42,380 nucleotides of DNA from Gammaproteobacteria bacterium (GTDB lineage: Bacteria > Pseudomonadota > Gammaproteobacteria > Eutrophobiales > Eutrophobiaceae). Shown one piece after another: positions 5,320-42,020 of this stretch (position 1 is the first letter of the stretch; every line of letters starts with the position of its first letter). The DNA lies in NCBI GenBank assembly GCA_030829955.1, contig JAURNY010000007.1:1-42380 (forward strand). Reading direction: 5' to 3'. The translations under genes were made by a program, and so were the position numbers. A model generated the notes under the pieces. It made no database searches, was not told the DNA's origin, and saw only the letters and a list, made by a program, of their open reading frames with translations.

Positions 5320-6990
5320 ATGGCAATTAAACAAATTGATTCAAAATATTACGTTAGTGAACAAATTCAGGTGACTGATCTGGATGACATCAAAGCTCAA
5401 GGTATACGTTCTGTAATATGTAATCGACCTGATGGTGAAGCAGAAGATCAACCAACACATGTAGAGATAGAAACGAAGGCAAAATCATTGGGACTCGAAT
5501 TCAGATATATCCCGATCGATAGAGGCATGATTAATGAAGAACAAGTACAGGCATTTAATAGCACCTTTACTGAATTGCCTCACCCCGTTTTAGGTTTCTG
5601 TCGTAGTGGTATGCGATCAACTTCCTTATGGGCATTAGCCAATGCGCAAAATATGGAGCTTGACGACATTATGACAAAAGCATCTGCAGCTGGCTATGAT
5701 ATGACGCCAATGTCTGAACGTATAAAAAATCATGGCAAAGTACCCGTTGAGAAACCAGACATTACCCATGACATAGTCATTGTTGGAGGTGGTGCTGCAG
5801 GAATTGCAGTTGCTTCTAGTTTATTAAAACGACGCTCTAATCTCGATATCGCTATTATCGAGCCTGCTGATAAACATTATTACCAACCAGGATTCACCAT
5901 GGTAGGTGGTGGCATTTTTGAAGCAAAACAAACTGTAAAAACTATGGCACATTTAATTCCTAATAATGTGAAATGGATAAAAGCTGCAGTTGCCGCGTTT
6001 GATCCTGAACATAACGCATTAATTCTCGAAGGCTGTCGTGTCCTAGGGTATAAACAACTAATTGTTTGTCCAGGATTAAAATTAAATTGGGCAGGTATCG
6101 AAGGACTTGAAGAAACATTGGGTAAAAATGGCGTAACCTCAAATTATCGTTTCGATCTTGCACCATATACATGGCAACTAGTACAGGAACTACAATCGGG
6201 AAAGGCACTATTTACTCAACCTCCCATGCCGATTAAATGTGCAGGCGCACCGCAAAAGGCAATGTATTTATCCAGTGACCATTGGCACAAACAAGGACTT
6301 ATTAATAATATTGATGTCTCATTCTTTAACGCCGGACCAGCCCTTTTTGGTGTTAAGGAATACATACCCGCTTTAATGGAATATGTTAAAAAATATAAAG
6401 CTAAACTTAATTTTGGTCATAACCTTGTAAAGATTGATGGTGCAAATAAAAAAGCCTGGTTTAGGAAAGTCAATGAAAATGGAGAAGATGAGATCATTGA
6501 AGAAAACTTTGACATGATCCATGTGTGCCCCCCTCAACAAGCGCCAGATTTTATCCGTGCCAGTAAATTGGTTGACGCAAGTGGATGGGTTGATGTTGAT
6601 CAGGACACCTTACGACATAAAACCTATGAAAATATTTATGCGCTTGGCGATGTTACTAATGCACCTAATGCAAAAACTGCTGCTGCTGCTAGAAAGCAGG
6701 CACCAATTGTTGCGCATAATTTATTAAATTATCTCGATGCCAAAAATGAACCTGCACTTTATGACGGTTATGGCTCATGTCCGTTAACTGTAGAGCGAGG
6801 CAAGATTGTACTAGCTGAGTTTGGCTATGGTGGCAAACTGCTACCTTCTTTTCCTAAATGGTTTATTGATGGTCAAAAACCAACGCGTCTTGCATGGTTC
6901 TTAAAAGAAATACTATTACCGCCCATTTACTGGAAAGGCATGTTAAAAGGTCACGAATGGCTGGTTAAACCAAAACCTGTGAAACGATAA
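5320..6990 (+). CDS. DUF442 sulfurtransferase - sulfide:quinone oxidoreductase fusion
   Basis: This 556-residue fusion starts with a DUF442/Blh-type phosphatase-rhodanese-like domain (about 1-115), whose loop CRSGMRS places the active Cys at 94. A flavoprotein follows with a dinucleotide fold at about 150 (IVIVGGGAAGIAVASSLL). The flavoprotein resembles mitochondrial-type (type II) SQR. It has VKC-like IKCAGAPQK (C307) and YGSCPL (C487), whose 180-residue spacing is close to that of the catalytic cysteines of human SQOR (201 and 379), plus GDVTNAPNAKTAAA near the FAD. SQR oxidises sulfide to persulfide and reduces quinone. The N-terminal domain probably takes up sulfane sulfur. AGAGA precedes the ATG. 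It is the first gene after the sigma-54 promoter. Confidence 0.88.
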   Translation: MAIKQIDSKYYVSEQIQVTDLDDIKAQGIRSVICNRPDGEAEDQPTHVEIETKAKSLGLEFRYIPIDRGMINEEQVQAFNSTFTELPHPVLGFCRSGMRSTSLWALANAQNMELDDIMTKASAAGYDMTPMSERIKNHGKVPVEKPDITHDIVIVGGGAAGIAVASSLLKRRSNLDIAIIEPADKHYYQPGFTMVGGGIFEAKQTVKTMAHLIPNNVKWIKAAVAAFDPEHNALILEGCRVLGYKQLIVCPGLKLNWAGIEGLEETLGKNGVTSNYRFDLAPYTWQLVQELQSGKALFTQPPMPIKCAGAPQKAMYLSSDHWHKQGLINNIDVSFFNAGPALFGVKEYIPALMEYVKKYKAKLNFGHNLVKIDGANKKAWFRKVNENGEDEIIEENFDMIHVCPPQQAPDFIRASKLVDASGWVDVDQDTLRHKTYENIYALGDVTNAPNAKTAAAARKQAPIVAHNLLNYLDAKNEPALYDGYGSCPLTVERGKIVLAEFGYGGKLLPSFPKWFIDGQKPTRLAWFLKEILLPPIYWKGMLKGHEWLVKPKPVKR

Positions 6991-7023: not shown

Positions 7024-8781
7024 ATGAAGTATTTTCCTATCCTGAATACATTAAGAGCATATCGTCTTGAAACCGGACGCGATGATCTTATTGCAGCGAT
7101 CACAGTCACTATCATGTTGATTCCTCAGTCACTTGCCTATGCCATGTTAGCAGGCTTGCCACCGAAAATAGGCTTATATTCCAGCATTCTTCCATTAATG
7201 TTTTATGCTGTATTTGGTACTAGCGGCAGTTTAGCCGTCGGTCCTGTCGCAGTTGTTGCTTTAATGACTAGTGCGGCAATCGGTGAAGTTGCCAGTATAG
7301 GTCAATATTCTTCTGTAGAAGTTGCCATTACTCTTGCGAGTCTATCAGGAATAATACTGATAATTATGGGACTCTTCAGGATGGGATTTATTGTTAATTT
7401 CATCAGTCGATCAGTCACCGAGGGTTTTATCATTGCCTCTGCCATATTGATTGCATTTAGTCAGTTAAAACATATTCTAGGCATCAAAATGACAGGGCAT
7501 AATCTATATGAAATGGTTGTTTCTCTCGTAACTCATATTACTGAGTTGCATCTACCCACATTTCTACTTGGTGGAACGGTGTTAATTGTATTATTAATTA
7601 CAAAACCATTAACCCGCTATTTTTCACCAAAATTGAATTTGATTAACAAATGGCAAGACTTTTTACCGCGCGCCATTCCTGCCATCATGGTCATTATTAC
7701 TATTTTAATCATGAATTTTTCGAACATTGGAAATTACAACATTGATATTGTCGGTTTAATACCTAATGGTATATTCGATATACAGCTAATTTCGTTTAAT
7801 GATTCCCTGTTTGAATTACTGATTATTCCGGCAGCATTGCTATCAATAGTTGGTTACGTTGAATCGATATCCGTTGCCAGTCGTTTTGCTGCTAAAACCC
7901 GAACACATATTGATCCTAATAATGAATTAATAGGTTTGGGCGCTGCTAATATTGGCAGCAGTCTATCAGGAGGCATGCCGGTCACAGGTGGATTTTCTCG
8001 TTCTGTCGTCAATTTTAACGCGGGCTCCAAAACACCTTTATCAGGCGTTTACTCCGCATGTTTTATTACAATCTTGGTCTCAGGTTTTATGGGTTTTCTG
8101 GAGCAACTCCCGAAAGCTACTTTAGCTGCCGCCATTATTGCTGCAGTTATTGGCTTAATTGATATTAAAAAATTAAAAGCTATCTGGGAATATTCAAAAT
8201 CAGATTTCATACTTATGCTGATAACAATTCTGGTAACGCTTTTCTTTGGTGTAGAAACCGGTATTAGCACTGGAATAATTTTATCAATTTTCATGTATCT
8301 CTATTTAACCAGTAAACCTCATATGGCCATTATTGGTCAGGTTCCTGGTACTGAGCATTTCAGAAATGTCTTACGTCATGAAGTTCAAACTATACCTGAA
8401 ATCATAGGCATCAGAATTGATGAGCGCTTATATTTTGCAAATGCTTCCTATCTAGAACAGGAGTTATTTCATCTTGTCAGCAAGAATCAATTAATAGAAC
8501 ATTGCATACTGATGTTTTCTGGAGTTAGTGATGTTGACGCAAGTGCATTGGAAAGTCTTGAAAAAATTCATGAACAACTCACCGACATCGGGATCACCTT
8601 GCATCTTTCAGAAGTAAAAGGTCCTGTTATGGATAAGCTACGTTCAACTAATCTTGTTAAGCATCTGAATGGTCATATTCATTTGTCGCATTTTCAGGCA
8701 GTAAAAGAATTAAGCGCAAAATACGATTCGCATAAGGCTGAATCAGATGTTTATGAAACCAATTTAAACCCTTTTAAATAA
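7024..8781 (+). CDS. SulP/SLC26-family anion transporter with STAS domain
   Basis: This is a 585-residue transporter. The membrane domain (about 1-430, 10-14 segments) begins with the family signature region LIAAITVTIMLIPQSLAYAMLAGLPP and GLYSSILP, and contains NIGSSLSGGMPVTGGFSRSVVN. A C-terminal STAS domain (about 445-560) contains FSGVSDVDASALESLE. SulP proteins carry sulfate, bicarbonate or other anions. Lying between SQR and persulfide dioxygenase genes (33 bp and 21 bp gaps), its likely substrate is a sulfur oxyanion such as sulfite or sulfate, with direction unknown. Bicarbonate transport cannot be excluded from sequence. Confidence 0.9.
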   Translation: MKYFPILNTLRAYRLETGRDDLIAAITVTIMLIPQSLAYAMLAGLPPKIGLYSSILPLMFYAVFGTSGSLAVGPVAVVALMTSAAIGEVASIGQYSSVEVAITLASLSGIILIIMGLFRMGFIVNFISRSVTEGFIIASAILIAFSQLKHILGIKMTGHNLYEMVVSLVTHITELHLPTFLLGGTVLIVLLITKPLTRYFSPKLNLINKWQDFLPRAIPAIMVIITILIMNFSNIGNYNIDIVGLIPNGIFDIQLISFNDSLFELLIIPAALLSIVGYVESISVASRFAAKTRTHIDPNNELIGLGAANIGSSLSGGMPVTGGFSRSVVNFNAGSKTPLSGVYSACFITILVSGFMGFLEQLPKATLAAAIIAAVIGLIDIKKLKAIWEYSKSDFILMLITILVTLFFGVETGISTGIILSIFMYLYLTSKPHMAIIGQVPGTEHFRNVLRHEVQTIPEIIGIRIDERLYFANASYLEQELFHLVSKNQLIEHCILMFSGVSDVDASALESLEKIHEQLTDIGITLHLSEVKGPVMDKLRSTNLVKHLNGHIHLSHFQAVKELSAKYDSHKAESDVYETNLNPFK

Positions 8782-31545: not shown

Positions 31546-32862
31546 CTAACCTGTAGTCTGCCTTTTATTCATAATTTCGTCAAACGAACGCTCGTTTTCG
31601 TTCACCTTTGCATTTGCCAACACCCAGTTGATAACTTCTTCTTCTAACGCCAGCGCTTCTACTTGTGCCAGATTATTTTTATCTGAGTAATACCAGTTGA
31701 TGACAGTATTAGGATCCTCATAACCTGACGCCATATCCTCAATCATAGCTCTAACCTGCGCTTGCTCGGCCTTAATATCATTTTGCTTGATAATTTCAGC
31801 AACAAGCAATTGCAACGCAACACGCTTTTCGGCCTGTTCTTTAAATAGAGAATCATCCGCGTCTTTCATGGATTTCGAATCGATACCCTGACGCTTCATG
31901 TTTTGTTCAAGTTCTTCGCGGACACGTTGAATTTCCTGGGTAACCATAGTTTGTGGTAATTCCACTTCATTTACTTCATGCAGAGTATCTAACACCTTAA
32001 TTTTTAATTGTTGACGCAAGGTTAAATCAACTTCACGTTCCATATTGCGTTTAATTTCAGCATTAAAGGCAGCTTCATCGCCATCCTTTATACCGAACAT
32101 TGCAATAAACTCGTCATTAATTTCAGGTAGAACCGGTTCATTAACGCTGTTCACTTTGACCTTAAACTGGACATTCTGGCCTTTTAGCTCTTCCTTGCCA
32201 TAGTCATCCGGAAATTTGAGGTCTAGTGTTAATTCCTCGTCTGCTTTTTTACCAATGAGACCAGCTTCAAATCCCTCTATGAAACTATTTGAACCTAACT
32301 CAAGATTATAATTTTCCGCTTTACCACCTTCGAATGCCTCATCATTTAAAAAACCTTCAAAGTTAATATTTACAATATCCCCATCCTTTGAAGCACGTTC
32401 AACAACTTCCTGACGACGTTGCTGTTTTCTTAAAACATTAATCATATCAGTGACATCTTGATCAGAAACATTACAAATTGGCCGTTCAATCTTAACATCG
32501 GAAATGGGTTTTAAGGTCAATTCAGGATAGACTTCAATAACAGCGGTGTATGCTAGATCCTTACCACCCTCATCATTAATTTCCTCAATTCTAGGTGGAC
32601 CGGCAGGTTTTAAATTTTCCTGATTTAATGCTTCATGCAAACTGGATTGCAAAAGCTCACCCAAAACTTCCTGACGTACCTGAGCGCCATAACGACTCTG
32701 CACCACTTTTAAAGGCGCCTTACCCGGACGAAAGCCCTGAATCTTCGTAGTTTTACTCAGACGTTGCAGACGGCTACTGACTTCTGAACTAATCTTTTCT
32801 TCAGGTACTTCCACACGTAACTTACGCCCCAGTGAACCTGTGTTCTCAACAGATACTTGCAT
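31546..32862 (-). CDS. tig: trigger factor (ribosome-associated chaperone)
   Basis: This 438-residue protein has the three trigger-factor domains: the ribosome-binding domain with the signature GFRPGKAP (about 44-51), an FKBP-type isomerase domain (about 150-245; DGDIVNINFEGFLNDEAFEGGKAENYNLELGS pattern) and a helical C-terminal chaperone domain. It shields nascent chains at the ribosome exit. It heads the tig-clpP-clpX cluster, and tRNA-Leu lies 53 bp upstream on the same strand. Confidence 0.97.
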   Translation of the reverse strand: MQVSVENTGSLGRKLRVEVPEEKISSEVSSRLQRLSKTTKIQGFRPGKAPLKVVQSRYGAQVRQEVLGELLQSSLHEALNQENLKPAGPPRIEEINDEGGKDLAYTAVIEVYPELTLKPISDVKIERPICNVSDQDVTDMINVLRKQQRRQEVVERASKDGDIVNINFEGFLNDEAFEGGKAENYNLELGSNSFIEGFEAGLIGKKADEELTLDLKFPDDYGKEELKGQNVQFKVKVNSVNEPVLPEINDEFIAMFGIKDGDEAAFNAEIKRNMEREVDLTLRQQLKIKVLDTLHEVNEVELPQTMVTQEIQRVREELEQNMKRQGIDSKSMKDADDSLFKEQAEKRVALQLLVAEIIKQNDIKAEQAQVRAMIEDMASGYEDPNTVINWYYSDKNNLAQVEALALEEEVINWVLANAKVNENERSFDEIMNKRQTTG

Positions 32863-32915: not shown

Positions 32916-33000
<85 letters not shown>

Positions 33001-33126
33001 GAATATATTTATCCTGTTTCAACAGAGCATATATGAAACATAGGCCTTACCCTAAGGCAGGCTTATTCTAATCATATTTCTGTGAAATGGGGACGGAGTT
33101 TGTTGGAAATAATCTAAAAATTCAAA

Positions 33127-33408
33127 TCAAAAACATTCTTCTATAAAAGACTGACAAACTCGACGACATTTACGACTTCCAGTCGAGGGGTTGAGTATAC
33201 AGTTTTCGCCCCATTCTTTACATACAGTTAAACATTTTTTCTTCTCCTGACCATGCTCGTAGTCATCAGGAAGTAGTAATTCACCATCAATCACCCGCTG
33301 GGCCTTAGGTTGCTGCTCATTATCCGTGTCTGCGAGTGCTATCGAAAAAACAAATGACAACATAGATATTGACGCTATTAATAGTAATGGTTGAATTAAT
33401 TTATACAT
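33127..33408 (-). CDS. small secreted protein with duplicated CX3CX6C motif
   Basis: I do not recognise this 93-residue protein. It starts with a signal peptide (hydrophobic to about residue 23, likely cut at ALA-D, 26/27). An acidic, low-complexity middle precedes a Cys-rich end: C59-X3-C63-X6-C70 and C81-X3-C85-X6-C92. The two units also share Val before the second Cys and Glu two before the third (VC...E.C), which suggests internal duplication. Six cysteines in an exported protein imply three disulfides or a metal or redox site. The Shine-Dalgarno sequence is weak. It lies alone between the prp operon and tRNA-Leu. The signal peptide and regular motif argue that it is a real gene. Confidence 0.72.
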   Translation of the reverse strand: MYKLIQPLLLIASISMLSFVFSIALADTDNEQQPKAQRVIDGELLLPDDYEHGQEKKKCLTVCKEWGENCILNPSTGSRKCRRVCQSFIEECF

Positions 33409-33532: not shown

Positions 33533-35431
33533 CTATTCAGATTCGCTCCGATAGCCTATCGTTTTTAACGCCTCAGTAATCTCATTCAATATCACAGGAT
33601 CATCAATCGTCGCCGGAATGGAATAATGTTCACAATCGGCAATTTTTTTCATAGTACCACGCAGTATTTTACCGGAACGTGTTTTAGGTAAACGATCAAC
33701 TATTACAGCTTTTTTAAACGAAGCAACAGCGCCAATTTCTTTTCTGATCAACTCAACCAATTGCGTGATTAATGTTTCATGTTCAGTTTTGGCACCACTC
33801 TTTAATACAACCAGACCTATTGGTATCTGTCCTTTGAGTTCATCAGCTACACCAATTACTGCACATTCAGCTACGTCAGGATGTGAAGCAAGTACCTCTT
33901 CCATACCACCAGTTGATAAACGATGACCTGCAACATTAATAACATCACCCAAACGACTCATCACCCAAACATCACCATCACTATCTATGTAGCCGGCATC
34001 CCAAGTCATATAATAACCTTCATGCATGGAGAGATAGGCTTCGATAAACTCTTCATCTTTTTGCCATAATGTAAGCAAACAGCCGGGAGGCATTGGTAAC
34101 TTAACAGCCATTTTACCCATTTCACCACACGGTAAAGGATTTCCCTTATCATCAAGAATTTTCAGGTCATACCCGGGACTGGGACGTGATGCAGAACCGT
34201 GTTTAATTGGAAATTGTTCTAGACCTAAACAATTTGCAGATATTGCCCAACCTGTTTCTGTTTGCCACCAATGGTCAATCACTGGCACCTTAAGTTGTTC
34301 TTCTGCCCATGCTAATGTCGGTGGATCACTGCGCTCACCCGCCAGAAATAAAGTTGCTAGCGAAGAAATATTATAATCTTTAATTAATTTACCTTCGGGG
34401 TCATCACGTTTGATTGCTCTAAAAGCAGTCGGAGCAGTAAATAAAACTTTCACTTTATGTTGCTCAATCACTCGCCAAAAAGCTCCTGCATCAGGTGTAC
34501 CGACAGGTTTACCTTCATAAACTAAAGAGGTACAACCATAGATAAGTGGTGCGTAACATATATAAGAATGGCCGACAACCCAACCGACATCTGAAGCTGC
34601 CCAATATACATCGCCAGGTTCAACATTATAGATATTCTTCATTGTCCAGTTCATCGCTACGGCATGACCACCGTTATCGCGCACCACACCTTTCGGCATG
34701 CCTGTTGTTCCAGATGTATATAAAATGTATAACGGATGAGTGGCTTCTACAGACACACAGTCAACAACATTCGCAGTTGCTTCTACTTCTTGCCAGTCAT
34801 GGTCACGCCCATCGATCATTCCTGCTTTACACTGAGAGCGTTGAAGAATGATACAACTATCAGGTTTATGTATAGCCTGTTCGATGGCTGCATCCAGCAA
34901 TGGTTTATATTCAATCACCCGATTAATTTCTATACCACATGTTGCAGACACGATGACTTTAGGTTTAGCGTCATTAATACGAGTTGCCAGTTCTTTTGGC
35001 GCAAAACCACCAAAAACCACTGAATGAATCGCACCGATACGTGCGCATGCCAACATGGCGATAACTGCTTCGGGCACCATTGGCATATAAACAACAACAC
35101 GATCACCTTTACTCACATTAAGTTTTGTTAACGCGCCAGCAAATTTGGCAACGCGATTTTTTAATTCGGCATAGGTGATATATTCAACTGTTTGTGTTAC
35201 CGGACTATCATATATAAGAGCAGCCTGCTCACCTCTCCCATTTTCAACATGACGATCGACTGCGTTATAACAGGTATTTAATTTCCCATCCGGATACCAG
35301 CGATAGAAAGGGATATTGGAACTATCTAATACTTTCGTAAAAGGAACATCCCAATGAATACCTTGTGCAACTTCAGCCCAGAATTCTTCAGGGTTATCTA
35401 ATGCGCGTTGATAAGTATCCATGTAAGACAT
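33533..35431 (-). CDS. prpE: propionate--CoA ligase
   Basis: This 632-residue acyl-CoA synthetase is close in length to E. coli PrpE (628). It has the AMP-binding P-loop YTSGTTGMPKG, the aromatic WWQTETGW motif and the C-terminal lysine motif PKTRSGKILRG, which needs Lys deacylation for activity in this family. It activates propionate to propionyl-CoA, feeding the methylcitrate cycle. The operon context favours PrpE over acetyl-CoA synthetase. AGGAGG lies 6 bp before the ATG, an almost perfect Shine-Dalgarno sequence. It is the last gene of the prp operon, and I see no terminator after it. Confidence 0.93.
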   Translation of the reverse strand: MSYMDTYQRALDNPEEFWAEVAQGIHWDVPFTKVLDSSNIPFYRWYPDGKLNTCYNAVDRHVENGRGEQAALIYDSPVTQTVEYITYAELKNRVAKFAGALTKLNVSKGDRVVVYMPMVPEAVIAMLACARIGAIHSVVFGGFAPKELATRINDAKPKVIVSATCGIEINRVIEYKPLLDAAIEQAIHKPDSCIILQRSQCKAGMIDGRDHDWQEVEATANVVDCVSVEATHPLYILYTSGTTGMPKGVVRDNGGHAVAMNWTMKNIYNVEPGDVYWAASDVGWVVGHSYICYAPLIYGCTSLVYEGKPVGTPDAGAFWRVIEQHKVKVLFTAPTAFRAIKRDDPEGKLIKDYNISSLATLFLAGERSDPPTLAWAEEQLKVPVIDHWWQTETGWAISANCLGLEQFPIKHGSASRPSPGYDLKILDDKGNPLPCGEMGKMAVKLPMPPGCLLTLWQKDEEFIEAYLSMHEGYYMTWDAGYIDSDGDVWVMSRLGDVINVAGHRLSTGGMEEVLASHPDVAECAVIGVADELKGQIPIGLVVLKSGAKTEHETLITQLVELIRKEIGAVASFKKAVIVDRLPKTRSGKILRGTMKKIADCEHYSIPATIDDPVILNEITEALKTIGYRSESE

Positions 35432-35474
35432 GAATAACCTCCTCTCTCATAACGGTTTTTATATTTATATTTTT

Positions 35475-36653
35475 TTAAAACGAATCTTCGGGAACTCTGA
35501 CCCAACCTTCCATGAGTACTCTTGCGCTTCTGCTCATAATGGCTTTTCTCGCTACCCATTGACCGTTTTCTTTACTAACTTCCGCGCCGACCTTTAATAT
35601 GCCGGAGGGATGGCCAAATCTAACATGTGTACGTTCACCACCACCTGCAGCAATATTCACCAACGTCCCGGGTATCGCTGCAGCAATACTTATTGCCACT
35701 GCTGCCGTACCCATCATGGCATGGTGTAATTTCCCCATTGATAATGCGCGCACGAGTAAATCAATTTCATTTTTATAAATTTGTTTACCGCTTGATGCAA
35801 TACAGTCAGCTGTTGCAGCGACATAAGCAACCTTGGGTGTATGTTGACGACTAGCTGCTTCTTCAATTGTATCTATCAGACCCATCTTTAATGCGCCATG
35901 TGCCCTGATTAATTCAAAACGTGCCAACGCATTTTCATCATTATTAATATCGACTTGTAATTCAGTGCCCCTGTATCCGACATCTTCAGCATTAATAAAA
36001 ACAGTCGGTATACCCGCATTGATCATGGTTGCCTTTAACACGCCGACACCAGGCACATCCAGATCATCCACTACATTCCCTGTTGGAAACATGGAACCAT
36101 CGCCATCTGCAGGGGCCAGAAACTCGACTTGTATTTCTGCTGCGGGAAACGTTACTCCATCTAACTCAAAGTCGCCGGTTTCCTGAACTTCACCATTCAT
36201 CATTGGAATCCGTGTAATAATGGTTTTGCTGATATTTTGTTGCCAGATTCGTACTTCGGCCATACCGTTGTCAGGCAATTTTCTCTTATCAACAAGACCA
36301 TTACTGATTGCAAATGCTCCAACAGCTGATGTTAAATTACCGCAGTTACCACTCCAATCGATCTTTGCTTGATCAATCGATGCCTGGCCAAATAAATAAT
36401 CGACATCATGATCCTGCTTTGTACTTTTAGAAAGAATCACAGTCTTGCTGGTACTTGACGTTGCCCCCCCCATACCATCAGTATGTTTTTGATAGGGATC
36501 AGGACTCCCAATAATTCTTAATAATAATGCATCACGAATAATACCCGGAGTTTGTGCAGCATTTGGTAAATCAGATAAGTTAAAGAACACACCCTTACTG
36601 GTACCGCCGCGCATGTAAGTAGCAGGTATTTTTATTTGTGGTCTATGTACCAT
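35475..36653 (-). CDS. prpF: 2-methylaconitate cis-trans isomerase
   Basis: This 392-residue protein of the PrpF family (diaminopimelate-epimerase-like fold) starts RPQIKIPATYMRGGTSKGVFF, the family N-terminal signature. It continues with GSPDPYQKHTDGMGGATSSTSKT and has a C-terminal GGGERTHVRFGHPSG. It isomerises the 2-methylaconitate isomer released by AcnD so that the next hydration can occur. It starts 2 bp after the acnD stop. PrpF and AcnD occur together as the alternative to PrpD. Confidence 0.95.
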   Translation of the reverse strand: MVHRPQIKIPATYMRGGTSKGVFFNLSDLPNAAQTPGIIRDALLLRIIGSPDPYQKHTDGMGGATSSTSKTVILSKSTKQDHDVDYLFGQASIDQAKIDWSGNCGNLTSAVGAFAISNGLVDKRKLPDNGMAEVRIWQQNISKTIITRIPMMNGEVQETGDFELDGVTFPAAEIQVEFLAPADGDGSMFPTGNVVDDLDVPGVGVLKATMINAGIPTVFINAEDVGYRGTELQVDINNDENALARFELIRAHGALKMGLIDTIEEAASRQHTPKVAYVAATADCIASSGKQIYKNEIDLLVRALSMGKLHHAMMGTAAVAISIAAAIPGTLVNIAAGGGERTHVRFGHPSGILKVGAEVSKENGQWVARKAIMSRSARVLMEGWVRVPEDSF

Positions 36654-36655
36654 CG

Positions 36656-39247
36656 TTATGCTGCCTGTTCAGATTCCAGAAAATCTTTTGCAAAACGTTG
36701 CAAGACTCCCCCTGCAGAATATACAGTGACTTCTTCTGCAGTATCCAAACGACATATCACCGGCACAGTAACTTCCTCGCCATTCTTTCGATGGATGATG
36801 AGTGTCAATGTTGTTCGTGGAGAAGGTTCACCAATAACATCAAACATTTCAGAGCCATCGATCTTCAATGTTTTACGAGTTGCGCCATCTTTAAATTCCA
36901 ATGGTAATACACCCATGCCAATCAGGTTAGTTCGATGTATTCGTTCAAAACCTTCCGCAACGATTGCTTCTACACCGGCAAGCCTGACGCCTTTAGCTGC
37001 CCAGTCGCGAGATGAACCCTGACCATAATCTGCACCGGCAATGATGATTAATGGTTGTTTGCGTTCCATGTATGTTTCGATTGCTTCCCACATACGCATA
37101 ATTTTACCTTCCGGCTCCAAACGCGCTAATGAACCCTGTTTAACCTCACCATTTTCCATCACCATTTCATTTAAAAGTTTCGGGTTGGCAAAGGTGGCGC
37201 GTTGTGCAGTTAAATGATCACCACGATGTGTGGCATAGGAATTAAAATCTTCTTCCGGTAAGCCCATCTTAGCTAAATACTCACCGGCAGCGCTACTTGG
37301 CAAAATAGCATTTGAAGGTGATAAATGGTCAGTTGTAATGTTATCGCCAAGAACTGCAAGTGGACGCATTCCTTTTAATGAACATTCCCCTGCTAATGCG
37401 CCTTCCCAGTAAGGTGGTCTTCTTATATATGTACTTTTTAAATCCCAATCATATAGTGGGCTCTCGGCTTCTTTAATCTTGCCAAGATCAAACATCGGTG
37501 TGTAAACCTGACGAAACTGTTCAGGCTTAACAAATTTTTTAACTATGGCGTCAATCTCTTCATCACTCGGCCAAATATCTTTTAATATAATGTCATTACC
37601 ATTGCCATCTTTACCTAGCAGATCCTTTTCAATATCAAATCGTATCGTACCGGCAATCGCATAAGCAACAACTAAAGGTGGCGACGCGAGGAAAGCCTGT
37701 TTGGCATACGGATGAATACGACCATCAAAATTTCGATTACCTGACAAGACAGCCGTTGCATATAAATCTCGTTCTATAATTTCTTGTTGTATCTTTGGAT
37801 CAAGTGCACCACTCATACCATTACAAGTAGTACAGGCAAAGGCAACAATACCGAAACCAAGTTTTTCAAGTTCAGTCAATAAACCTGATTCTTCCAGATA
37901 AATCTTTGCGACCTTGGAACCCGGAGCAAACGAAGACTTAACCCAGGGTTTTCTGATCAAACCAAATTCATTTGCTTTTTTTGCTAATAAACCTGCAGCA
38001 ACAACATTACGCGGATTCGACGTATTCGTGCATGATGTAATTGCTGCAATAATCACTGCTCCATCTGGCAATTCATCTTCTTTCTCTTCCCACTTCCCCG
38101 CAATGCCTCGTTCAGCTAATGATGATGTCGGTAACCGACGGTGCGGGTTTGATGGTCCTGCCATATTTCTGACAACAGAAGACAGATCGAACTCTAATAC
38201 ACGTTCATATTCTGCTTGTTTAAGATCATCTGCCCATAAACCTATTGTCTTGGCATAATGCTCAACTAGTTGAATTTGCTCTAGTTCACGACCAGTTAAC
38301 GTAAGGTAATCAATCGTTTGTTGATCAATGTAAAAGAGTGCAGCCGTCGCACCATATTCTGGGGTCATATTTGAAATGGTTGCACGATCTCCGATCGTTA
38401 ATCCTTTCGTACCTTCACCAAAGAACTCTAAATAAGCAGAAACAACACGTTCATTTCTCAAAAATTCAGTCATGGCTAATGCAATATCTGTGGCGGTAAT
38501 GCCCGCTTGGCGTTGACCTGTAATCTTTACACCTACAATTTCAGGCAAGCGCATCATAGATGGACGACCTAACATGACTGTTTCCGCTTCAAGTCCTCCA
38601 ACACCAACAGCGATTACACCAAGTGCATCAACATGTGGCGTATGGCTGTCCGTTCCAACACAGGTATCCGGATAAGCAACACCATCTCTCGCCTGTATAA
38701 CCGGCGACATCTTCTCAAGATTTATCTGATGCATAATGCCGTTACCGGCTGGTATCACATCCACATTTTTAAATGCTGTTTTTGTCCATTCAATAAAATG
38801 AAAACGATCTGCATTACGTCGCTCTTCAATCTCGCGATTCTTGTCAAATGCATCTGGATCAAAACCGCCATGCTCAACAGCCAGAGAATGATCAACAATT
38901 AACTGTGTTGGTACGATAGGATTTACTTCAGAAGGGTCACCGCCTTTTTCCGCAATAGCATCTCTTAAGCCTGCAAGATCAACTAATGCGGTTTGTCCCA
39001 AAATATCATGACAAACCACCCTTGCCGGATACCATGGAAAATCCAGATCCTGTTTACGCTCGATAATTTGTATTAATGCATCGCCCAGTTGTTGTGGATC
39101 GCAACGGCGTACAAGCTGCTCAGCTAATATACGAGAAGTATAGGGTAAACCTTCATAGGCACCAGGTTTGATTGCCTCTATCGCTTCACGCGCATCATAA
39201 TAACTAAGCTGTATGTCAGGTAATTGTTTTCTATAACATGTATTCAT
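36656..39247 (-). CDS. acnD: Fe-S-dependent 2-methylcitrate dehydratase AcnD
   Basis: This is an 863-residue aconitase-family enzyme. The three cluster cysteines are in ITSCTNTSNPRN and FACTTCNGMSG. The swivelling C-terminal domain carries GADYGQGSSRDWAAKG. Length and context (prpC before, prpF after) identify AcnD over the TCA-cycle aconitase AcnA (about 890 residues). It dehydrates 2-methylcitrate to 2-methylaconitate. The start ATG (MNTCYRKQLPD) is 21 bp after prpC. Confidence 0.95.
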   Translation of the reverse strand: MNTCYRKQLPDIQLSYYDAREAIEAIKPGAYEGLPYTSRILAEQLVRRCDPQQLGDALIQIIERKQDLDFPWYPARVVCHDILGQTALVDLAGLRDAIAEKGGDPSEVNPIVPTQLIVDHSLAVEHGGFDPDAFDKNREIEERRNADRFHFIEWTKTAFKNVDVIPAGNGIMHQINLEKMSPVIQARDGVAYPDTCVGTDSHTPHVDALGVIAVGVGGLEAETVMLGRPSMMRLPEIVGVKITGQRQAGITATDIALAMTEFLRNERVVSAYLEFFGEGTKGLTIGDRATISNMTPEYGATAALFYIDQQTIDYLTLTGRELEQIQLVEHYAKTIGLWADDLKQAEYERVLEFDLSSVVRNMAGPSNPHRRLPTSSLAERGIAGKWEEKEDELPDGAVIIAAITSCTNTSNPRNVVAAGLLAKKANEFGLIRKPWVKSSFAPGSKVAKIYLEESGLLTELEKLGFGIVAFACTTCNGMSGALDPKIQQEIIERDLYATAVLSGNRNFDGRIHPYAKQAFLASPPLVVAYAIAGTIRFDIEKDLLGKDGNGNDIILKDIWPSDEEIDAIVKKFVKPEQFRQVYTPMFDLGKIKEAESPLYDWDLKSTYIRRPPYWEGALAGECSLKGMRPLAVLGDNITTDHLSPSNAILPSSAAGEYLAKMGLPEEDFNSYATHRGDHLTAQRATFANPKLLNEMVMENGEVKQGSLARLEPEGKIMRMWEAIETYMERKQPLIIIAGADYGQGSSRDWAAKGVRLAGVEAIVAEGFERIHRTNLIGMGVLPLEFKDGATRKTLKIDGSEMFDVIGEPSPRTTLTLIIHRKNGEEVTVPVICRLDTAEEVTVYSAGGVLQRFAKDFLESEQAA

Positions 39248-39268
39248 GCTACTGCTAAATTCCGTTTA

Positions 39269-40423
39269 TTATTTTCGTTTTGAAATCGGGACAAACTTAA
39301 GGTTTTCCGGACCAATATAATTCGCACTTGGTCTAATTATCTTGCCGTCTTCGCGCTGTTCTATTACATGCGCTGCCCAACCCGATGTGCGCGATATAAC
39401 AAACAATGGCGTAAACATGGCAGTTGGCACATTCATTAATGAATAAGAAACAGCAGAAAACCAGTCAAGATTAGGAAACATTTTCTTTTCATCCCACATT
39501 ACTTTTTCAATACGCTCAGCAACCTTATGCATCTTCATATCTTTCTTTTCAGTTGCGAGTTGCTTTGAAACAGCTTTAATTACCTTGTTTCGTGGATCAC
39601 CAATCGTATAAACCGGATGACCAAAACCGATAATGATTTCTTTACGCGCCATACGTTCACGAATATCAGCTTCAGCTTCATCAGCATTGTTGTAACGTGA
39701 TTGAATATCGAAAGCCACTTCATTCGCACCACCATGCTTAGGACCACGTAACGCGCCTATCGCGCCTGTAATTGCAGAAAATATATCAGAGCCTGTGCCG
39801 GCAATAACACGACCAGTAAAGGTTGATGCATTATATTCATGTTCTGCATATAAAATAAGTGAAGTATGCATTGCACGCACCCAACTCTCGGATGGTTTTT
39901 CACCATGTAATAAATGTAGGAAATGTCCACCGATAGAATCATCATCAGTTTCAACATCAATACATTTGCCATTCACAGCAAAGTGATACCAGTACAGCAA
40001 CATGGAACCAAATGATGCCATTAAACGATCTGCAATATCTTTCGCACCTTGTTTATTGTGATCTTCTTTTTCAGGCATGACAGCACCTAATACAGAACAA
40101 CCAGTTCTCATTACATCCATCGGATGTGTGGAAGCAGGTAATTGTTCAAGTGCCATTTTAACTGCCATGGGTAAACTACGTAGTGATTTTAATTTGGTTT
40201 TATAGGATTCAAGTTCAACCCTAGTTGGTAGTTTTCCATGCACCAGTAAGTATGCAATTTCTTCAAACTCACAAACTTCTGCGATATCAAGAATGTCATA
40301 CCCTCTATAATGCAAGTCATTACCGGTACGACCTACTGTGCATAACGCCGTATTACCTGCCTCAGTTCCGCTTAATGCGACTGACTTTTTAGCCTTTGGT
40401 TTTTGAGTCGTTTTTGTTGCCAT
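39269..40423 (-). CDS. prpC: 2-methylcitrate synthase
   Basis: This is a 384-residue citrate-synthase-family enzyme. The active-site histidines and aspartate are in [25 protein letters not shown] and the later [10 protein letters not shown] region. [13 protein letters not shown] and [12 protein letters not shown] are typical of PrpC. It condenses propionyl-CoA with oxaloacetate. The short N terminus ([20 protein letters not shown]) lacks the longer domain of the TCA citrate synthase, supporting PrpC. It lies 11 bp after prpB. Confidence 0.95.
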
Positions 40424-40434
40424 GTTAAATATCC

Positions 40435-41313
40435 TTATGCTTTTTCATTTTTAAAAAGTTGATCGAGTTTTTGTTCATAGTCGTGGTAACCCAGAAATTG
40501 GTATAACTCTTCTCTGGTTTGCATATCACCAAGCACATTTTGTTGAGTGCCTTCTATTCTAAGTGATTCATAAACTTTTAATGCCGCCGCATTCATCGCA
40601 CGAAATGCAGACAATGGATAAAGCGCCAGAGCAACATTCGCCGATGCCAATTCCTGAATGGTAAATAAAGGCGTTGAACCAAATTCAGTTATATTTGCCA
40701 ACACCGGGACGTTAACTGCGTCAGCAAACTGTTTATACATGTCCAGTTCTGTCATTGCTTCAGGGAATATCATATCCGCACCAGCTTCGACACAGGCACA
40801 AGCGCGTTCAATCGCTGCTTCAAGACCATCAACTGATAAAGCATCTGTTCTTGCCATAATGACAAAATCATCATCTGTTTTTGCATCCACCGCAGCTTTA
40901 ATACGATCAACCATTTCACCCTGAGAAACAATGGCTTTATTAGGTCGATGACCACAACGTTTTTGTTGCACCTGATCTTCAATATGAATTGCGCCGGCAC
41001 CTGCCTTTATCATTGAACGCACAGTACGGGCAATATTAAATGCACCACCCCAACCGGTATCAACATCAACCAAAACAGGTAAATCGGTCACATCTGTAAT
41101 ACGACGCACATCAATTAATACATCTTCCAATGTTGTTATACCCAAATCAGGAATACCACATGAACCAGCAGCAACACCGCCGCCAGAAACATAAAGTGCA
41201 TTAAAACCCGATGCTTCTGCCAGACGAGCATGATAAGCATTAATAGCCCCTACAACTTGTAAAGGTGATTCATCTTTTACCGCTTTTTTGAAACGGACGC
41301 CCGCTGACATCAT
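40435..41313 (-). CDS. prpB: 2-methylisocitrate lyase
   Basis: This is a 292-residue member of the isocitrate lyase/PEP mutase superfamily. The catalytic loop KRCGHR with its Cys, the metal-site VDVDTGWGG and the substrate-binding [18 protein letters not shown] are all present. It cleaves 2-methylisocitrate into pyruvate and succinate. The ATG at 41313 overlaps the stop of the regulator gene (ATGA). A second ATG directly follows (41310), so the exact first residue is ambiguous by one. Confidence 0.96.
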
Positions 41314-42020
41314 GCTTGATTACCCCAATTCTGTTCTTGTGATTGTTCTTGCAACATCAATTCAACATTTTTTCGTGACTGGCTGATATGACGTTTCATT
41401 AAATAAAATGCTAATTCCGAATCTCGTTGTCGTATTGCATCAACAATATGCCCATGCTCAAGAAAAGCGCGGGAAACTCTCCTACTCGCCATACCGAATT
41501 GAAAGCGATACAAACGAATTAATTGATAAAGATCGTTAAAAAATAAATTGATGAGCGTTTCGTTCTTACTTCCCTTCACAATACGAAAATGAAAATCCAT
41601 ATCACCTTCTTTTTGAAAATAATGATGATCTGTCTGAATCTGTTTTTCATGTTGTTTTAATAATGCATCCAGCTCTTTAATCTCTACCTGACTCATATTT
41701 TTCGCCGCTAACTCCGCAGCTAATGATTCGATCGCTTCTCTTAGTTGATAGATTTCTAGAAGATGTTCATGTGACAAAGTGATAACGCGACAACCAATAT
41801 TCGGTTTTCTAGTTATAAGACCTGCACTTTCAAGTCGTCCAAGTGCCTCGCGCAAAGGCGCACGACTAACACCATATTCCTTTGCGATAACGGGCTCGCT
41901 CAATTTTGACCCTGTAGCAATCCTGCCTTCTACAATTTCCTGCTGTAACCGATGAAACAGTTTATCGACAGTCGTTTCTGTACTGACGGATGTGATTTCT
42001 CTGGATTCTCCATAATTCAT
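41310..42020 (-). CDS. GntR-family (FCD) regulator of the methylcitrate operon
   Basis: This 236-residue protein has an N-terminal winged helix-turn-helix (about 17-82; [39 protein letters not shown]) and a C-terminal all-helical FCD ligand domain with His residues ([16 protein letters not shown]) that often bind a metal. It is first in the prp operon and overlaps prpB by 4 bp, so it likely controls the operon, including itself, in response to a methylcitrate-cycle intermediate. The palindromes just upstream fit GntR-family operators. A GntR-type prp regulator called PrpQ has been described by comparative genomics; whether this is the same protein is not shown here. Confidence 0.92.

Follow-up and report, generated by a model that had tools for sequence, protein, structure and literature searches.

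A family of small exported six-cysteine proteins with a predicted beta-hairpin module in an order of Gammaproteobacteria

The locus and its product

The window (the whole stretch of DNA analysed here, 42,380 nucleotides) contains a small leftwards-transcribed gene with an ATG start codon, whose product (MYKLIQ...EECF) carries six cysteines near its C-terminus (Table 1). The cysteines are spaced CX3CX6C-X10-CX3CX6C, with C59-X3-C63-X6-C70 in the first half and C81-X3-C85-X6-C92 in the second; C92 is the penultimate residue, followed by a single residue and the stop codon. The codons from C59 to C92 occupy 33234..33133, exactly the span given in the original prediction, which described two units of identical spacing with shared valine and glutamate positions; this is correct as stated, the shared residues being V62/V84 and E68/E90. 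The protein had also been called exported, in agreement with an N-terminus that, judged by eye, resembles a signal peptide (ALA↓DTDN) and stays hydrophobic in the homologues.

Table 1. Features of the cysteine-protein gene and its conserved neighbours, in window coordinates.
Feature	Coordinates	Strand	Basis
Predicted exported small cysteine protein, 93 aa	33127..33408 (incl. stop codon)	minus	ORF, homologues, selection
Putative signal peptide, residues 1-26, ALA↓D cleavage site	33331..33408	minus	by eye; hydrophobic N-terminus in homologues
Acidic/flexible linker, residues 27-58, with conserved G-x-L-x-L-P (residues 42-47)	33235..33330	minus	alignment, dN/dS, low pLDDT
Half 1, C59-X3-C63-X2-W66-G67-X2-C70, predicted strand 59-72	33199..33234	minus	alignment, AlphaFold2, permutation
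Loop/turn 71-80 (NPSTG turn), family length 9-23	33169..33198	minus	homologues, AlphaFold2
Half 2, C81-X3-C85-X6-C92, predicted strand 79-92	33133..33168	minus	alignment, AlphaFold2, permutation
tRNA-Leu(TAG), conserved downstream neighbour (context only)	32916..33000	minus	locus comparison
tig (trigger factor), conserved next neighbour, then clpP, clpX, lon (context only)	31546..32862	minus	locus comparison

Conservation of the neighbours in other genomes, which the original prediction proposed to check, holds on the downstream side: the tRNA-Leu(TAG) and tig genes lie downstream in 31 of the 33 order loci examined, with clpP, clpX and lon beyond tig wherever the contig extends. The exceptions are G003 and G006, where the gene is located elsewhere. 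A weak terminator-like hairpin (33044-33058) lies between the cysteine gene and the tRNA, so the gene may be transcribed alone. The upstream neighbours differ among the order loci; in the window the gene adjoins a methylcitrate-cycle cluster at its prpE end (33536-42020; FCD/GntR regulator, prpB-like, prpC, acnD, prpF and prpE), and prpE was not found near it at the remaining order loci that were fetched, the same genus included. Farther away, a beta-lactamase-hydrolase-like phosphatase domain is fused to a pyridine nucleotide-disulphide oxidoreductase (5320-6987; possibly SQR-like) and is followed by a sulfate permease with a STAS domain (7024-8778), which might reflect sulfur metabolism.

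Conservation and distribution

The gene is present in 47 of the 53 genomes of the order (one family, 18 genera) and in 32 of the 33 near-complete ones. Assembly could account for all six absences, since no tig was found in four of these genomes (G013, G028, G407, G408) and tig is at a contig end in the other two (G010, G022). It is mostly single-copy; the exception, G409, carries the gene twice, on different contigs, which may mean that the bin is mixed. The copy in G023 is frameshifted and split after W66-G67 (L033:4900-5110), either by an assembly error or because the copy has decayed. An alignment-based scan of genome contigs recovered 36 loci, and a single-sequence scan of them gave no match. 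When 58 related genomes were searched, most of those in the same family had clear relatives, and no convincing relative came up outside it. Public records carrying relatives are metagenome-assembled genomes labelled Thiotrichaceae, Legionellales, or unclassified Gammaproteobacteria or Proteobacteria. We note that one such contig labelled Klebsiella pneumoniae (L085; CAMDWI010000006.1) bears both the cysteine gene and the tig locus of the order, and the label is very probably wrong.

Eight residues (C59, C63, W66, G67, C70, C81, C85 and C92) are invariant in 31 aligned members of the order, and all six cysteines and W66 are kept across 31 to 36 aligned homologues even though the loop that separates the halves can be anything from 9 to 23 residues long, so the pattern is not due to chance. 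A second conserved motif, G-x-L-x-L-P, lies in the linker. Among close relatives the median dN/dS is about 0.06 for the hairpin region, 0.11 for the linker and 0.29 for the signal peptide, indicating that the gene is under strong purifying selection; the frame is real and translated. Longer members (L042, L045-L053, L021-L031 and L073-L088) have another hydrophobic stretch, hhLA[QED], a short way past the signal peptide, which is kept as a motif while the linker around it varies.

The two halves share a repeat consensus, [W/F]-G-[E/Q]-[D/E]-C-[I/F], and their similarity at non-cysteine columns exceeds that of column permutations, with P in the range 5e-5 to 3e-4 (2.5e-4 for order members, 5.5e-5 for a wider set). 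The suggestion that they arose by internal duplication is thus supported; convergence within a symmetric hairpin is an alternative reading of the same similarity.

Relatives outside the order are found in four other Gammaproteobacteria families (f140, f97, f133 and f92) in a class sample of 369 genomes. The tRNA-Leu/tig/clpP/clpX/lon context is retained in f140 (L101) and in one f97 genome (L103), and in f133 and f92 the gene comes immediately 5' of putative genes for a HAD nucleotidase (yrfG-like), trmB and thiG, names assigned by reading the sequences. In f92 the gene is present in 10 of 36 genomes, and this patchiness looks real, as the f92 genomes lacking a profile match have no six-cysteine ORF of the same pattern near yrfG. 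The remote consensus is roughly C-x3-C-x2-W-x3-C-[ND]-V-D-P-R-G-V-Y-K-C-x-R-x-C-x2-F-G-x2-C-E. In several remote members (L099, L117, L119 and L096) the plain signal peptide appears to be replaced by a lipobox; the lipobox-like N-termini among remote members include LALGAC-AQ, LSAC-AT and VAGC-AS, which suggests that the product is retained in the envelope. Sampling 398 genomes across the phylum yielded no further clear member, with only two matches at E 0.005-0.009. A function cannot be read from the neighbours, as the products of tig/clpP/clpX/lon and of yrfG-trmB-thiG are cytoplasmic and seem tied to the gene by position only, and G003 and G006 carry it elsewhere.

The predicted fold of the cysteine module

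AlphaFold2 predicts the module to be a two-stranded antiparallel beta-hairpin. For the window protein (36-row alignment) the strands are 59-72 and 79-92, with pLDDT 96-97 over residues 61-90, and for a second query with a loop of nine residues (L076; 28-row alignment) they are 68-82 and 86-100, with pLDDT about 96; both alignments are shallow and overlap each other. The pTM values are low (0.38 and 0.33), and the signal peptide and linker are modelled with low confidence. Numbering the cysteines C1 to C6, both registers (i+j=151 and 168) place C1 opposite C6 and C3 opposite C4. The turns, NPxTG in the order and DPRG in remote members, are compatible with a hairpin in which C3 and C4 face each other; the remote form C-[DN]-V-D-P-R-G-V-Y-K-C matches a type I turn that has a glycine bulge, which sets C3 directly across from C4. 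Should W66-G67 and F88-[G/A/T]89 each form a classic bulge, the six cysteines would all lie on one face with C2 and C5 as diagonal neighbours, giving a three-disulfide ladder 1-6, 2-5, 3-4. The pairing of C63 with C85 and the placement of the cysteines on one face, with W66 and F88 on the opposite one, are reasoned from these paired bulges.

The original prediction had likened the protein to small disulfide-bonded helical hairpins on account of its twin CX3C pattern, a kind to which the CHCH and small Tim proteins belong. The spacing of the CX3C pairs is indeed the same, and positions i, i+4 and i+11 would share one face of a helix, but both AlphaFold2 runs give strands with high confidence, the loops are beta-turn-like, and Pfam scans covering 31 members and 10 remote ones show no CHCH match; the likeness is not borne out, and we consider a helical fold decidedly improbable.

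Solved structures resemble the module no further than a generic hairpin: a PDB profile search returned only ribosomal eL18 (E=3.6), Foldseek against the PDB gave nothing below E=0.3, and a VIA structural comparison nothing above Z 2.2. Pfam, NCBIfam, PHROGs and PADLOC were blank or gave only sub-threshold chance matches, among them a weak match to Conotoxin (PF02950; 8.6 to 18.5 bits, below the curated cut-off of 25.1). Among the publications found to carry the string CX3CX6C, one, going by its title, deals with snail metallothioneins, and the others are unrelated. The view that no described bacterial family matches is therefore upheld by the profile searches; the family is new, and its general kind is already known.

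A proposed envelope role and related systems

The signal peptide or lipobox, the linker and the oxidisable cysteines point to a periplasmic location; DsbB is encoded in the same genome. That the gene keeps to one locus, mostly as a single copy, and is strongly constrained speaks for a housekeeping role. We propose, with about an even chance of being right, that the protein is a DSB-oxidised, periplasm-retained binding module, a hairpin on a linker, with a housekeeping role in the envelope. The polypeptide would be exported by Sec to the periplasm, as a lipoprotein in some relatives, where a flexible acidic linker would bear the C-terminal disulfide-stapled hairpin, which would have arisen when a C-x3-C-x2-[W/F]-G-x2-C half was duplicated. 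The DSB system would oxidise the hairpin once exported, most likely to a ladder of nested bonds (C59-C92, C63-C85, C70-C81) along one face, so that W66 and F88 sit on a rigid face opposite. The hairpin could then serve as a small constant binding module, an adaptor or structural factor, docking on a conserved envelope partner, probably assisted by the GxLxLP motif of the linker. We infer the oxidation state, the C2-C5 bond, the face assignment and the binding role; the analysis identified neither a partner nor a phenotype for the protein, nor a functional operon that is conserved around its gene.

Two other envelope roles seem unlikely. In one, the protein would bind metal or act in thiol redox in the periplasm, its six cysteines being reduced and binding Cu or Zn, or one pair cycling. 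Export and six invariant cysteines would suit such a protein, but the module contains no CXXC and no conserved His or Met beyond a common Met60, the cysteines are even in number with pairs facing each other in the predicted hairpin, and none of the neighbours tested is a metal or cytochrome gene. In the other, a periplasmic domain would regulate or inhibit, for instance, a protease or a peptidoglycan enzyme, its hairpin acting as a lid or as a loop that resembles a substrate. Rigid disulfide-bonded loops are frequent enzyme inhibitors, which gives this reading some appeal, but it amounts to a narrower form of the binding-module proposal, and nothing specific points to it.

A secreted bacteriocin or antimicrobial hairpin peptide, the toxin role raised in the original prediction, is very unlikely. 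Beta-hairpins stapled by disulfides do form a known class of antimicrobials (PMC4410394), but vertical inheritance and a single-gene locus disfavour this reading: the gene is inherited order-wide, mostly in single copy and in synteny, no relative was found in phage and plasmid searches, and some remote relatives are lipoprotein-like. No toxin- or immunity-like neighbour is present at the loci examined, where the constant neighbours are tRNA-Leu and tig. A strongly cationic amphipathic peptide is not what is encoded: the net charge of the module is only -1 to +5 in six members and that of the acidic linker -2 to -6, compared with +6/+7 for tachyplesins (PMC4410394).

An unannotated family universal in the order, with a module under strong purifying selection, probably has a necessary envelope job in these largely uncultured Gammaproteobacteria. 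It is possible, and we put it forward tentatively, that it constitutes a bacterial housekeeping family with a three-rung cystine-ladder beta-hairpin, a pseudo-twofold mini-fold made by internal duplication, that is a necessary envelope component order-wide and has no described relative. The cysteine motif makes members easy to recognise, and their small size should allow quick structure determination and disulfide mapping.

Among known systems, the twin-CX3C and twin-CX9C proteins of the CHCH and small Tim kind share the twin CX3C spacing, two antiparallel arms and an oxidising compartment, but are helical and eukaryotic, whereas the arms here are predicted beta strands without a profile match. 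The aphid BCR3 peptides (CX3CX6C-X21-25-CX6CX3C) have the same first-half spacing but are insect peptides with a mirrored second half, and there is no evidence of homology to the cysteine protein (PMC9604261). Tachyplesins and theta-defensins have a single beta-hairpin, as is predicted here, held by cross-strand disulfides, as is inferred here, three in number in theta-defensins (PMC4410394). Those peptides are animal, short and cationic, and theta-defensins, with their ladder of disulfides, are also cyclic, whereas the cysteine protein is bacterial, longer-stranded, nearer neutral, linker-bearing and vertically inherited.
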